A model generated the notes under the pieces. The model saw only the letters and a program-made list of their open reading frames with translations, had not been told where the DNA came from and ran no database searches. A DNA stretch of 7,890 bases from Chitinispirillales bacterium (lineage in GTDB: Bacteria > Fibrobacterota > Chitinivibrionia > Chitinivibrionales > Chitinispirillaceae), in the NCBI GenBank assembly GCA_031254445.1, contig JAIRUL010000184.1, forward strand, positions 1 through 7,890, written 5' to 3'. Positions 1 to 7,890 of this stretch are shown here, piece by piece (positions within the stretch are counted from its first letter, which is position 1; each line of letters starts with the position of its first letter). Made by a program: the position numbers and the translations under genes.

Positions 1-91
1 TGAAGCCGTAGGCTTCGTCTGAAAAAGATTTAAAGAATTTGACTTTTATAGGCTTCGTCTGAAAAAGATTTTAAAAAGACTTTGACTTTTA
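1..91 (-). repeat. Two-core interspersed repeat block, left copy
   Basis: This AT-rich block follows the stop codon of the radical SAM gene. Read on the minus strand it contains the core TTTTTCAGACGAAGCCTA twice (cores at about 49-66 and 9-26). The outer core is completed to the small hairpin GAAGCC-TAC-GGCTTC at 2-16. The cores are separated by AAAGTC/AAATTC-type simple sequence. By hand alignment the first 70 bases match the reverse complement of the block upstream of metH at roughly nine positions in ten. The window edge cuts the element, so it may extend further left. The T-run precedes the hairpin on the minus strand, so it is not a standard intrinsic terminator for the gene that ends here. 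Confidence 0.85.
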
Positions 92-2379: not shown

Positions 2380-5300
2380 CTAAGATAAATATTCCGCATC
2401 GGGGTGATGCACAAAAATTGCAACCGTCGAATGTTCAGGCTGCATCTGGAATCCGGGCGTTAGCGAGATTCCGAGGCGCTCCTCCACCCCGAGGAACTCT
2501 AGGAGGCGCGCCTGATCCTCCAAAGAGGGCATCCCCTGATACCCGAAACTGTACCGCCGCCCCGCGCCCTTACCCAACCCGAGCGCGCGGCGAATCTCCG
2601 CCGACAGCTTGTCCGCAACCGCCTCGACCAAGTAGTTGGCAAGCCCGTTTAGGTAGTAGCCGTCGCTGTAGCGGTCGTGCTCCAAAAGGAGCTCGCGGCA
2701 CCGCTCGCCTATCCGGGCGCTTATCGTTACAGCCTGCGTCGACACAATGTCGCCCTCGGGGCGGACGTAGTCGGCAAGCGACAACCCGCTCTTCGCGCTC
2801 CGCGGGAAGCCAAACGTTAAGCGCTCTGTGTGATAGTCGGAGGGGTCTAGGAACGATATTTTTTCGCCGTCTGCTATGACAGGAAAGAAGCCGTAGAAAC
2901 CGCGGGCATCTATCAGCGACTCGTTTATAATCTCATATGAGAGCCTATCGAAAACGGGCCCGAACTCCTCCTGCCGCGCGCTCGCGTAGGAACCCGCGTC
3001 CAAGTTGCCGCCGCCCCAGCGCGTCTTGAAGAGCTGCTCGCGGTCTACGGCGGCGAGCAAGGCGGGCGTGTCCCACACGAGGATTTCTCCGGTGCCATGA
3101 AAGGGGGGCTCAATTAGGTAGTCATATTTTAGGGCTTTACGGGTTGATTTGGTTGTTGAAGCCGGCGTTGATGTTTTTGACGCTTTTGACGTATCATCGA
3201 TATTGATAATGGTCTTGCCGGATGATTTTTTATCATCGTTGACAGCTGTTACTTGACCGTCAAGCAATACGCCCTTCCCATCGCTCCTCCCGTCCATTGC
3301 GTCAAATATCTTCACCACGTCAAACGCGTCTTTAGCATAATGCACCCCCGGCGCGAATTTTTTACCGTCTTCAAGCACCGCTATCCTCAAGGCGAACTCC
3401 CTATTCACCGCCGCGCCGCCGATTATGATCGGGGTGTTGATGTCTAACTGCGCGAACGTCTTAACGCACTCCCCCATCTGCTTGCTCGTCGTTACAAGGA
3501 GCGCCGACAGCCCCACCGCGTCCGGCTTCTCGCGCCTCACCGCCTCTACTATCGTCTCTATAGCGACCTGCTTGCCGAGGTCGATGACGTCAAAGCCCTG
3601 ATTCCGCAATATAGACGCGACCAAGTTCTTGCCGATGTCGTGCACGTCGCCGTAGACCGTGGCGATGACGATCTTGCCCTTAACCGCGCCGCCGCCGGAG
3701 GCCTTAAGGTGCGGCTCCAAAATCGCGACGGCCTCGCGCATCGCCTCCGCGGCCTGCAAAACAAAGGGGAGGATCATTGAGCCTGCGGCCATAAGCTCGC
3801 CCACCTCGGACATAGCGGGGAGCAAAATCGTATTTAGGATGTCGGGCGCGGGGCGGCTCTCCAGTAATTTGTCTATGATTTCGGGAAGATGGCGCTTGTC
3901 CCTATCGATAATGGCGGAACGCAAGCGCTGTTCGGGAGGCAGATCTGCGGCACCATGAGCGCCGCCCGCTGTGCGCTGTGCGCTGTGCGCTGTGCGCTGC
4001 CCCTCGGCCTCAAAATATTCTACGAATTTCTGCAAACAGTCTGGATGCCTGTTAAAAAGCAGATCCTCCCCCAGCCCGCGTACCGTTTTATCATAAGCAT
4101 TGACGTCGTCCACATGAAGCGGGTTAAAAATCGCCGCGCTCAACCCCGCGTCCACCGCGTAATGCAGCATGAGGTTATTCAGTATACGCCGCGCCTTGGG
4201 CGCAAGCCCGAATGATACATTGCTGACGCCCATCGCCGTGCGGACATTCGGGAACTCCTTTTTGATGCGCCGCAGCGCATCCAGCGTCTCAAGCGCGGCG
4301 TTCGCCGTATCAACATCGCCCGTCGCTAAAGTGAATACGAGCGGATCGATATACACATAATGCTTCGGCAATTTATACTCATCGCACGCTAGTTTTATCA
4401 ACCTATCTGCGACTTCAAGCTTACGGTCGGCAGTCGCCGCCATTCCCGCATCGTCAATAGTAAGCGCGACAACGGGGCAACCGAACTCGGCAGCCAAAGG
4501 CAAAATCTTCCGCGCCTTCGCGCCGCCATGCTCTAGGTTTATGGAGTTGATGAGCACCGACCCGGGCGATTTTTTGAGCGCGGCCTCCATAACCGACGGC
4601 TCGGTCGTATCGATGCAAAACGGTATGCCGACCCTTTCCCTTAGGTACGCGACCACGCTGCCCATCATCTCCGCCTCGCCCACATCTAGCTCGTTAGCGG
4701 CTACGCAGATGTCAAGCAGCGTGCTATTTTTATCAATTTGTTCCTTCGCGATGTAGTAAAGCTCTTCAAAGTTGCGGCCTATCACAAACTCTTTGGTTTT
4801 TTTAGACCCCTGCGTGTTCAACCGCTCGCCTATGATAATCGGGCGGCGCGCCTGTTCCAAATCGAGGCCCGATATCCCAGTAGACAAAAAGCATCCCCTG
4901 CGCGAGTTATCCCTCTTCGCGACATTAATACCACTAATCGCTCCAGCCAAGGCCCGTATATGCGCAGGCGTGGTACCGCAGCACCCGCCGACAACCGACA
5001 CGCCCTTTCCCTTGACAAAAGCGAGCATTTTATCGGCGAACTCCTGAGGCCCCATCTTGTATACTGCCTTACCGTCTACGTTGCTAGGCAAACCGGCGTT
5101 TGGCAGCATCGACACGGGTAATGTCGATAGCTTTAGCAATTCGTCGATGCACGGCCCCATCTCGTCCGGCCCGCTGCTGCAATTCAAACCTACAACATCA
5201 ACCCCCATCCCCTGCACGGCTCCGAGGAACGCCGCGACATCGCTGCCGAGAAGCATCTTCCCGCCGGCGTCCATCGTCACCTGAGCCTGTAGGGGGATGC

Positions 5301-5865: not shown

Positions 5866-6102
5866 TAGGTGTTGACCTTTTTTTTATCTTTTAATCTTTT
5901 AAAATCAAAATCTTAAAAATCTGTTTCAGACGAAGCCTATAAAATCAAAATCTTTTAAATCTTTTTCAGACGAAGCCTACGGCTTCATAACGTGTGGCGC
6001 AGAGCCGCCACACAAAGTCAAAGTCAACATCAACATCAAAACCATCCACCCCGCCGCCTTTGACGTTGATGTTGACTTTGTGTGGCGGCTCTGCGCCACA
6101 CG
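5866..6102. other. Repeat-filled spacer upstream of metH
   Basis: These 237 bp separate the BatA-like gene from metH. Positions 5866-5920 are AT-rich simple sequence (TTTTAATCTTTTAAAATC type) next to the metH start. Positions 5921-5987 hold two repeat cores, and 5962 onward is the left arm and loop of a large inverted repeat. No promoter with convincing -35/-10 boxes can be picked out of the AT-rich background, though metH expression must start here or read through from upstream. Confidence 0.6.
5895..5987 (+). repeat. Two-core interspersed repeat block upstream of metH, inverted relative to the left-edge copy
   Basis: Read on the plus strand, the core (T)TTCAGACGAAGCCTA occurs at about 5924-5939 (with GTTTCAG instead of TTTTCAG) and at 5962-5979. 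The second is completed to the GAAGCC-TAC-GGCTTC hairpin (5972-5986). The spacing and the AAAATCAAAATC filler match the left-edge block at 1-91 in reverse orientation. The cores and hairpin are essentially identical; most differences lie in the filler. Confidence 0.85.
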
Positions 6103-6131
6103 TTATGAAGCCGTAGGCTTCGTCTGAAAAA
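5962..6131. repeat. Large imperfect palindrome made of two inverted copies of a composite element
   Basis: The left arm 5962-6021 is exactly complementary to 6072-6131 (60 bp). After a 6-base extra AGTCAA in the left arm, pairing continues (6023-6040 with 6059-6076, one mismatch) around an unpaired centre at about 6041-6058. Each arm holds two smaller hairpins: GAAGCC/GGCTTC (5972-5986 and 6107-6121) and GTGTGGCG-CAGAGC-CGCCACAC (5992-6013) with its mirror (6080-6101). Transcribed from the BatA-like gene it would fold into a very long RNA hairpin. It could equally extrude as a DNA cruciform. The right arm includes the 3' end of the BatA-like gene. Confidence 0.95.
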
Positions 6132-7890
6132 AGAATTTAAAAGATTTTGACTTTAAAGACTTTGACTTTAAAGACTTCCACAAAAAGACCTCAAGGCACA
6201 ACATCAGCCCCAACACAACCCAAATCCAATAAGACCACGCATTATTCGACAGATTCCCGATTTGCTCTAGGAACTGCCCAGCTTCAAAATAATATATGCC
6301 GCCGCTATTCCCCAACTCCGGCCTCTCAAAATCCATCTCGCTCTCTAACGGATGCGGCGACACCGCGAAGTTTGCTGTTTCGCCGCTTGATGATACTAGC
6401 GTGTAGACGCCGGGCTTGTCCACGCGCACGTAGGGCTGGTTCGACCACGCGGCCGCTACCTTCCCGTCTCTATCGTAGAGCGTCCCGGTACGCCCGCCGC
6501 CGAAGAAAGGGTTGCGGACGGCGTAGCCGGCGTACCGCGCCTCGTCCGCCTGCCCGCGCCCCGCTAAGAGCGCGTAGCGGCCTAAGCGGTCTACGAAAGG
6601 GACGAAGAAGCCGGTCTCGCAGAGGTTGTTGGACTGCGTGACGCCTATGGGCGTTGCGATTATTAGTATATTGGAACCGGCGTGGATGTTGGACGTAACG
6701 AGCGCGTGATGGTTCATGCTAAGCATAACAAGCTTGTGCTCAAAAATCGGAGACATGAATCGATAAATTTTTGAGTTTTTGCTTGACATAGCGGGAAAGC
6801 CCCGCCAGAGCGTGGAGTTCGTATCAACGAGCATTGGGCTTAGCCCCTTCTCCGCGACCTGAACGCTTGGGAAAACCTTCTGATTGGAGGTAATGCCGCG
6901 AAAGACCGACCTGCCGAAGTCGTCTCCGCGCTCCGGGTCTAATGCGACTATAACCCCCTTGCCGATGGCGCCGCCGACGATGAACGACTCTAAGACGCGC
7001 GAGCGGCCGTTGAAGCTGTTTACTATCACCAAGTCCGCCGCGTTGATATCCTCGTACGAGAGGTCGGGGCCCTCTTTGAGAACGACCTGATTCCAAAACG
7101 ACGGCCCGGCAGCCCGCAAAGCCGCGCCTATGACCTTGTTGCGCTGCACGCTCCCCACGATGAGCGCCGTGCGGCCCGTCTCCTCCGAGACCGTGAAGTA
7201 GTCAATATTGTCGAACGGTAACGGATCGCTCGCGTGAAGCTCCACTTTCCCAAAAGCCCCAATTTTCGCGGGCGGCAGGTCAAACATCACTGTAACGGAG
7301 TCGTTAGCCGCGCAGGCGACGCTGCGCTGCCCAATCCGCAAATCACCCACCGTCAACTCAACATACGTAGAATCCATCGCCGCGCCAAGCGCACGGACGA
7401 CGACAGATACGCCTCCGTTGAGCGATGCGCCGTTTACAGCCGTTACCGAGTAATTGCGCGGAGTATGCGGCGCAAGCGAAACGCATATCGCCTTGCCGCC
7501 GCTATCAGCCAATATTGACCTAAGGGAATCGAACACCTCTACCGTACCGCGCTGAAAATCGCTCAGTAATATAAATACGGCAGGCGACTGGGGCGGACGT
7601 GACGACCGCGCCGCCGTAAAAGCGTCTACGGCCTCGCGAAGGTTCACCGGCCCAAAGCGTCCGGCGAACCTTTGCGGGCCGCTTACGGCTTGCGGCCTGT
7701 CCGCGGCAGCTTGCTTATCCGCCGACAAAACGAAACGCCCGCTCTCGTGATCGAAATAATGGCGCTCTGCTGATGACGGAAGCGTGCGCGTCAGCGAATC
7801 GGCAATCCCCGCAGCCCGCGCCCCCAGCTGCACCCCGTTTTCAACGAACTCCATGCTCACCGTGGGGTCAATCCACGTATAAACAGCGCA
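6103..7890 (-). CDS. BatA-type von Willebrand factor A-like membrane protein, 5' end outside window
   Basis: The reading frame is open to the window edge (10 codons beyond the GTG at 7860, giving AVYTWIDPTVSMEF), so the N-terminus is missing and GTG 7860 is not the real start. Residue numbers here count from that GTG. The visible part begins at the metal-site loop of a VWA domain (DPTVS, cf. DxSxS) and continues to FILLSDFQRGT (about 96-106), typical of this family. Next come beta-rich segments ending in DPLPFDNIDYFTV (about 212-224), then an amidotransferase-like fold (about 229-310, TALIVGS and LVIVNSF). A further beta domain follows (ANFAVSPHPLESEM, about 496-509). A single membrane helix (about 541-561) precedes a basic tail (KSLKSKSLKSKSFK). 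Family members usually carry N-terminal membrane helices too, and sit beside MoxR/Bat genes, which would be to the right. The role is uncertain (envelope or stress-related in other bacteria). The last nine codons (FQTKPTAS, TAA) are the intergenic repeat. Confidence 0.82.
   Translation of the reverse strand, partial: CAVYTWIDPTVSMEFVENGVQLGARAAGIADSLTRTLPSSAERHYFDHESGRFVLSADKQAAADRPQAVSGPQRFAGRFGPVNLREAVDAFTAARSSRPPQSPAVFILLSDFQRGTVEVFDSLRSILADSGGKAICVSLAPHTPRNYSVTAVNGASLNGGVSVVVRALGAAMDSTYVELTVGDLRIGQRSVACAANDSVTVMFDLPPAKIGAFGKVELHASDPLPFDNIDYFTVSEETGRTALIVGSVQRNKVIGAALRAAGPSFWNQVVLKEGPDLSYEDINAADLVIVNSFNGRSRVLESFIVGGAIGKGVIVALDPERGDDFGRSVFRGITSNQKVFPSVQVAEKGLSPMLVDTNSTLWRGFPAMSSKNSKIYRFMSPIFEHKLVMLSMNHHALVTSNIHAGSNILIIATPIGVTQSNNLCETGFFVPFVDRLGRYALLAGRGQADEARYAGYAVRNPFFGGGRTGTLYDRDGKVAAAWSNQPYVRVDKPGVYTLVSSSGETANFAVSPHPLESEMDFERPELGNSGGIYYFEAGQFLEQIGNLSNNAWSYWIWVVLGLMLCLEVFLWKSLKSKSLKSKSFKFFFQTKPTAS
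6148..6177. repeat. Tandem 15-mer in the 3' end of the BatA-like gene
   Basis: The 15-mer TGACTTTAAAGACTT occurs twice in exact tandem, with a degenerate partial copy at 6136-6147. The unit is in frame (five codons) and encodes the KSLKS/KSLKS part of the cytoplasmic tail. The same AAAGTC/TTTAAA words fill the spacers around the other genes. Confidence 0.85.

Follow-up and report, generated by a model that had tools for sequence, protein, structure and literature searches.

An inverted doublet of hairpins in a Chitinispirillales genome as a copy of a dispersed, REPIN/BIME-like intergenic family

The long palindrome at positions 5962-6131 of the window (the whole 7,890-nucleotide stretch of DNA analyzed here) belongs to a dispersed family of inverted doublets located between genes. 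With a probability that we put at about 0.6, this family forms a non-autonomous, REPIN/BIME-like mobile mosaic, the whole doublet being copied to new sites by an enzyme encoded elsewhere. The window makes up the whole of contig C296 of a 1.97-Mb draft genome (G000; 301 contigs, 70% complete), and was compared with the eight genomes of the genus (G000-G007), the 24 of the family (G000-G023) and 41 genomes searched in all. The element is carried by two of these, G000 and G007, each of which is 68-70% complete.

The genes in the window include that of a radical-SAM protein resembling TIGR03916, with a score below the cut-off of this family, and that of a methionine synthase (metH), whose family match covers almost the full length yet scores under the curated cut-off; two further proteins gave no family match. 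The closest named matches to the radical-SAM protein (81-83% identity) belong to Chitinispirillales bacterium (two) and Fibrobacteria bacterium GUT77 (one), and the fourth match is a Bacteroides protein (41%). Chitinispirillales-type genomes such as these closest relatives are presumably of termite-gut origin. The MetH proteins of the genus match that of the window at 71-75%, and when synteny or an empty site was looked for, the three named relatives aligned over the radical-SAM gene only. A GTGCGCT-type tandem repeat is present at 3956-4000 within the open metH reading frame, and the AT-rich array and H1 (6103-6180) supply the stop codon and roughly the last two dozen residues (KSLKSKS...FFFQTKPTAS) of the minus-strand ORF at 6103-7860.

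Checked base by base, positions 5962-6021 pair perfectly with 6072-6131 over 60 consecutive bases, the first mismatches beyond them being located at 6022, 6023, and 6029, and the pairing is resumed after a six-base slip (6019-6034 with 6065-6080 and, after a mismatch at 6035, 6036-6040 with 6059-6063), exactly as the initial annotation of this DNA had described. Expressed as an inverted repeat, the arms (5962-6033 and 6060-6131) are 72 nt long and 96% complementary, with a spacing of 26 nt. The fold energy of the palindrome amounts to -132 kcal/mol, as compared with -41.9 (sd 4.0) in the case of shuffled sequences (z -22.6), none of the 200 shuffles being as good. Each arm consists of a hairpin H1, a linker, a second hairpin H2, and a tail of AAMRTC hexamers (Table 1), and both hairpins fold by themselves, as had also been claimed. 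H1 has the sequence GAAGCC-TAC-GGCTTC (stem 6 bp, loop 3 nt) and a conserved flank, CAGAC/GACG; the AAATCTTTTT adjoining it is conserved across 97 aligned units. In both arms of the window, H2 reads GTGTGGCG-CAGAGC-CGCCACAC. The core was said to recur at three other places in the window: three such places do exist, but the core is full at one of them only (H1 at 2-21), while the other two (51-61 and 5927-5937) are half-cores.

Table 1. Components of the palindrome and of related repeats in the window, with the basis for each.
Feature	Position	Strand	Basis
H1 core belonging to a further element that is truncated at the contig start	2..21	-	Sequence, repeat search
Half-core of the contig-start element, with an AT-rich array around it (22-97)	51..61	-	Repeat search
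AT-rich flanking array of AAAATC/TTTAAATC-like units ending in TTTTT, with a 40-bp direct repeat	5881..5966	+	Repeat search
Half-core CAGACGAAGCC, without its partner half-hairpin	5927..5937	+	Sequence, repeat search
Arm A core CAGACGAAGCCTACGGCTTC with hairpin H1 (5972-5986)	5967..5986	+	273 exact copies in G000; fold
Arm A hairpin H2, stem 8 bp, loop CAGAGC (A type)	5992..6013	+	Doublet comparison, fold
Arm A tail AAAGTC AAAGTC AACATC AACATC AAA	6014..6040	+	Sequence, unit alignment
GC-rich centre ACCATCCACCCCGCCGCC	6041..6058	+	Same sequence or a close variant shared by the majority of the listed 19 doublets
Arm B tail, on the minus strand AAAGTC AACATC AACGTC AAA	6059..6079	-	Sequence, doublet comparison
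Arm B hairpin H2 with an A-type loop, CAGAGC (the usual one is B type, GCTAAAGC)	6080..6101	-	One A/A among 19 doublets
Arm B core with hairpin H1	6107..6126	-	Repeat search, core count
B-side AT-rich flanking array	6127..6180	-	Repeat search

The 20-base core occurs in 273 exact copies in G000 (130 on the plus and 143 on the minus strand), the reversed control giving none. A looser H1 pattern was found 286 times in G000 and 103 times in G007, but was absent from the other 39 of the 41 genomes, and its controls gave no matches. The 79-nt arm yielded 77 matches in G000, at least 15 of which are exact, full-length, and located at different places (the window's own copy included); 40 of the 266 candidates were scored, and these counts are therefore minimum values. 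The palindrome is thus not single-copy, and the description of it as a multicopy, BIME-like inverted dimer more elaborate than a terminator holds good. A plasmid search gave no match to the element, and no exact matches to a 21-base core were obtained in the IMG/VR viral contigs.

The genomic placement of the element was studied in a sample of 80 contigs (C1-C80; 502 kb, of which 489 kb were readable), five of them consisting wholly of N and lying outside the gene-based counts. Genes were predicted with a simple caller of our own (86% coding), and H1 sites with up to three substitutions were accepted. Seventy-eight of the 79 H1 sites are located between predicted genes, and the remaining one is within a short, doubtful ORF. 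Among the spacers of at least 20 nt, the element is carried by 18/161 tandem, 7/41 divergent, and 3/23 convergent ones (divergent vs. the rest, Fisher p 0.31), and there is no preference for the 3' ends of genes. Since the contig ends often fall in the repeat (34 of 160, 10 of them in masked contigs), the latter likely explains the broken state of the G000 assembly.

Inverted doublets are over-represented. Neighboring sites in the 80 contigs form 13 pairs with the cores pointing outward, none with the cores pointing inward, and two direct pairs, whereas random placement in the extragenic DNA (1000 runs) gave a mean of 3.0 for each inverted kind (outward maximum 8) and 6.1 for the direct one, so that 13 outward pairs were reached in none of the 1000 simulations. 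In nine of these 13 pairs the distance is 119, 125, 131, 137, or 143, values separated by multiples of the six-base unit; the remaining four measure 128, 197, 209, and 260. Of the 32 unpaired sites no more than 150 nt away from a contig end, 30 have their tails pointing at that end. This is what would be seen if assembly had broken off within doublets, and these sites are probably halves of doublets.

In the window, the 60 match loci, and the 80 contigs, 19 distinct doublets located inside contigs fit the two-hairpin pattern. When their arms are classified by the loop of H2 (CAGAGC in type A, GCTAAAGC in type B), 16 of them are A/B and two are B/B, and the only A/A doublet is that of the window. 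As a rule, the CCATCCACACCGCCGCC side of the centre accompanies the A arm, and the opposite side the B arm; under a loose motif rule, loop and centre were found to be exchanged in a minority of units (4/20 with the A loop and 3/19 with the B loop), the scoring having excluded 26 of the 97 units for showing neither centre, 30 for being cut short, and two for their rarer loops. Among the 16 A/B doublets, a single one has the exchanged register. In the rest of them, which are in the normal register, the B-side tails contain AAAGTC and AACGTC without any AACATC, whereas AACATC is present in the B-side tail of the window. This A-type hexamer points to overwriting of the arm rather than to the recent duplication initially proposed for the near-perfect arms: the sequence of the A arm was likely copied over the B arm in the window, either through gene conversion or through a template switch across the hairpin. 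The near-perfect arms are an unusual feature of this copy and are not typical of the family, where unlike arms prevail. Singlets are as conserved as doublets (0.43 mismatches, n=21, vs. 0.56, n=25; p 0.59).

Several observations bear on the movement of the doublets. In the 40 best doublet pairs listed, the homology extends no further than about 100 nt beyond the cores and ends in the AT-rich arrays, which indicates that the copies are not segments of larger duplications. The doublets on C15 and C62 have a nested GGGCGTTGC-type hairpin insert in common, in a 288-nt match (86%) ending at the element, so that the doublet and its cargo appear at two loci; alternatively, the same cargo may have been inserted twice, separately, at like places. 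A second type of cargo, on C18, has 119 identical bases in common with the end of C16. No target-site duplication was identified in the flanks, which are of low complexity and leave the exact ends of the element undefined. Judging from these sequence comparisons, the doublets are likely mobile. A trans-acting enzyme would copy the whole doublet to new intergenic sites, the copied form might be a single-stranded hairpin, as proposed for REPINs, and loops could be swapped or overwritten when the inverted arms recombine or the template is switched from one to the other, which would explain the A/A copy in the window.

In G007, as read from 20 stretches picked because they hold matches, the plan of the element is the same as in G000: H1 (with the loop TTC), the linker ATAGG, an H2 with the sequence ATATGCGGGG-CTAAA-CCCCGCATAT, a hexamer tail, the centre, and an inverted H2. 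By eye, the second arm of many of these doublets (L158-L175) was seen to end in another hairpin, GGGCGCGATAAATCGCGCCC, replacing H1, which makes their ends hybrid. The H2 stem of the G007 consensus differs from that of the B type of G000 on both sides of five of its 10 pairs, and all 10 are still paired; these compensatory differences are seen between two genomes; the initial annotation had suggested looking for such changes between the arms. Counted directly over 82 copies (45 rows from G000 and 37 from G007, the G007 pattern having allowed certain loops only, with copies carrying other loops outside the 37), 803 of the 820 H2 pair cells are intact, two truncated G000 copies (GTGTGGCGGC then CAAAGTCAAA) being kept as misses, and C-G replaces A-T at pair 1 in 5/37 G007 copies. 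The difference between the two genomes would fit either compensatory change or the exchange of whole hairpin modules, both of which preserve the structure. One short insert, CTTGTTTATCTCGGCGAAGCC, with AA on either side, was observed both in an H2 loop (L162, around 204) and in a hexamer array (L169, around 640) of G007, which would be consistent with the insertion of a very small element.

The hexamer arrays extend beyond the element. Three consecutive AAMRTC units (overlaps being counted) were matched 559 times in G000 and 217 times in G007; the remaining six genomes of the genus had 11 to 100 matches each, other members of the family had 0 to 8, and genomes outside the family, like the reversed controls, had 0 or 1: these arrays mark the genus. 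In the 80 contigs, 67 arrays are located outside genes and three inside. The types of units are mixed with a weak dependence (chi-square p 0.04), unlike what simple slippage would give. In the genomes lacking H1, inspection by eye of at least 36 loci showed that the arrays frequently adjoin other GC-rich hairpins. An AAMRTC/TAAGTC array of more than 20 units was observed without any H1 element in G006 (L185, 20-170).

Other explanations for the family have to be weighed against that of a mobile mosaic. The element might act at the RNA level, protecting mRNA 3' ends or serving as an RNase III site or an attenuator, and be immobile at present; the very stable fold, the stem pairing kept despite the difference in sequence, and the intergenic position of nearly all the sites would fit such a role. 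We nevertheless regard it as improbable, since divergent spacers carry the element no more rarely than tandem or convergent ones, and the lack of any preference for gene ends argues against a terminator or a role at mRNA 3' ends. The base of the palindrome stem carries a T-run on the 5' side and an A-run on the 3' side (TTTTT...AAAAA), the reverse of an intrinsic terminator, and no known RNA family was found in the window at Rfam gathering scores. An intrinsic terminator proper, i.e. a GC-rich hairpin followed by a run of T, is ruled out by this order of the runs and by the presence of the element in divergent spacers. Some BIMEs bind nucleoid proteins or gyrase, and the dense spread of the element (273 cores in 1.97 Mb) over every class of spacer could likewise suggest a site involved in chromosome structure; the fact that the H2 sequence differs between the two genomes while its pairing is kept would be odd for a fixed protein site and makes this very unlikely. 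That the palindrome is an assembly artefact is scarcely credible: the contigs are of the draft metagenome type and often end in the repeat, but the 19 doublets inside contigs are distinct, 16 of them have unlike arms, and their flanks differ, and a diverged family is present in another genome, G007.

The element might also be a genuine REPIN whose mobilizing RAYT (Y1 HUH) transposase happens to be absent from the incomplete assemblies. The layout is the same (an inverted doublet as the likely copied unit, hairpins, an intergenic location, and hundreds of copies), both element-bearing genomes are only 68-70% complete, and the Y1 transposase family (PF01797, the only mobilizing enzyme included in the search) is present in three of the eight genomes of the genus (G001-G003). 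The link to such a transposase which the initial annotation had envisaged found little to sustain it, however: PF01797 had no match in G000 or G007, all three genomes carrying it are devoid of H1, and the element has no GTAG tag. The Y1 genes of G002 (L073, 1386-1980) and G003 (L074, 1300-1985) are flanked by GCACCCC...GGGGTGC hairpins which, by eye, are unlike H1 and H2, and these genes and hairpins likely constitute a separate REP/RAYT system in the genus. We therefore consider a true REPIN unlikely, and prefer the reading of a non-autonomous doublet copied by an enzyme encoded elsewhere.

The distribution of SbcCD, a nuclease acting on palindromes, is relevant to the persistence of such long arms. 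SbcCD was not found in six of the eight genomes of the genus or in seven of the 16 other family members, some of which are near complete; for G000, G006, and G007, each about 70% complete, this absence is weak evidence. SbcD exceeded the cut-off in one genome of the genus (G003) and in nine of the 16 other family members, and the strong SbcC matches agree with SbcD and add G006, which was scored as positive on SbcC alone; no SbcC match in the 41 genomes exceeded the TIGR00618 cut-off, and strong refers here to a line of our own (E below 1e-40). Weak SbcD matches below the cut-off in G000, G005, and G007 (E 6.6e-9 to 3.6e-5) were taken for other metallophosphoesterases, as they would seem to be from the fact that G003 has both a weak and a strong match. 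Over the 24 family genomes, arrays are commoner where SbcCD was not found (p 0.026, shared ancestry being uncontrolled), the differences within the genus (0.14) and outside it (0.13) not being significant. When palindromes with an arm length of 25 nt or more and a spacer of at most 120 were counted, there were 15 in 489 kb of G000, one in 102 kb of G002, none in 153 kb of G003 (SbcCD-positive), and none in 80 kb of G004 (SbcCD not found), counts which are too few to rely on and in which G004 runs against the idea. The loss of SbcCD would at most be permissive, allowing such palindromes without producing them by itself, and its association with them is suggestive but confounded; the fact that 16 of the 19 doublets still have unlike arms speaks against the simple form of this idea. 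A broader scenario, which we hold to be doubtful, is that SbcCD loss opened the intergenic space to long-armed palindromes, the degenerate AAMRTC arrays found throughout the genus serving as a common docking and recombination strip where hairpin modules would be inserted, swapped, and folded into inverted doublets, with the linker conserved and the hairpins turning over between species.

When the element is compared with known systems, BIMEs and the neisserial intergenic mosaic elements (NIMEs), which are mosaics of hairpin modules and linkers in intergenic space, show the same general construction, and like BIMEs, the element is an intergenic mosaic in which palindromic units alternate in orientation; its linkers differ in that they are degenerate AAMRTC arrays which occur genus-wide and also beside other hairpins. 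Like MITEs, it is short, non-autonomous, and dispersed, with terminal inverted repeats, but it has no known parent transposon, and no target duplication was seen. The CGTC-tagged REPs have an unpaired CGTC at one end, a stem of 8-9 bp, and a loop of 4-5 nt, whereas the CGTC of the element lies 3' of the hairpin. According to the available text of Di Nocera (2013; PMC3733652), they form inverted dimers, often of unlike units, have no known dedicated transposase, and are sometimes found inside longer palindromes. The element resembles them in forming inverted dimers which are often heterodimers, and differs from them in its shorter H1 (6 bp, 3 nt) and in having GACG 5' and CGTC 3' of the hairpin, with CAT rather than CCA next to the stem. 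No earlier report of this repeat family was found among the top listings for open PMC text, and neither Fibrobacter nor Chitinispirill occurs in the available main text of PMC12306157.

Along with the CGTC-tagged REPs, the closest parallel is provided by the REPINs, described in the available text of Bertels and Rainey (2011; PMC3116915) as extragenic inverted doublets of palindromic repeats present in hundreds of copies, the doublet being the likely copied unit. The element shares with them the inverted doublet, the extragenic location, the hundreds of copies, and compensatory change in paired parts, and differs in its two hairpins per arm, its hexamer tails, and the fact that no GTAG and no RAYT were found; in addition, the REPIN model predicts more diverged singlets, whereas those of the element are no more decayed than its doublets. 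It works like a REPIN, yet is not classed as one, because the GTAG tag and the decay of singlets were both looked for and neither was observed. REP-type palindromes lacking a known mobilizer are an open problem, and heterodimers of unlike REPs have been suggested to persist by escaping SbcCD-type clearance (Di Nocera, 2013; PMC3733652, available text). With SbcCD not found in six out of its eight genomes, and with 103-286 H1 sites in two of them, the genus lends itself naturally to a test of this idea of escape from SbcCD.
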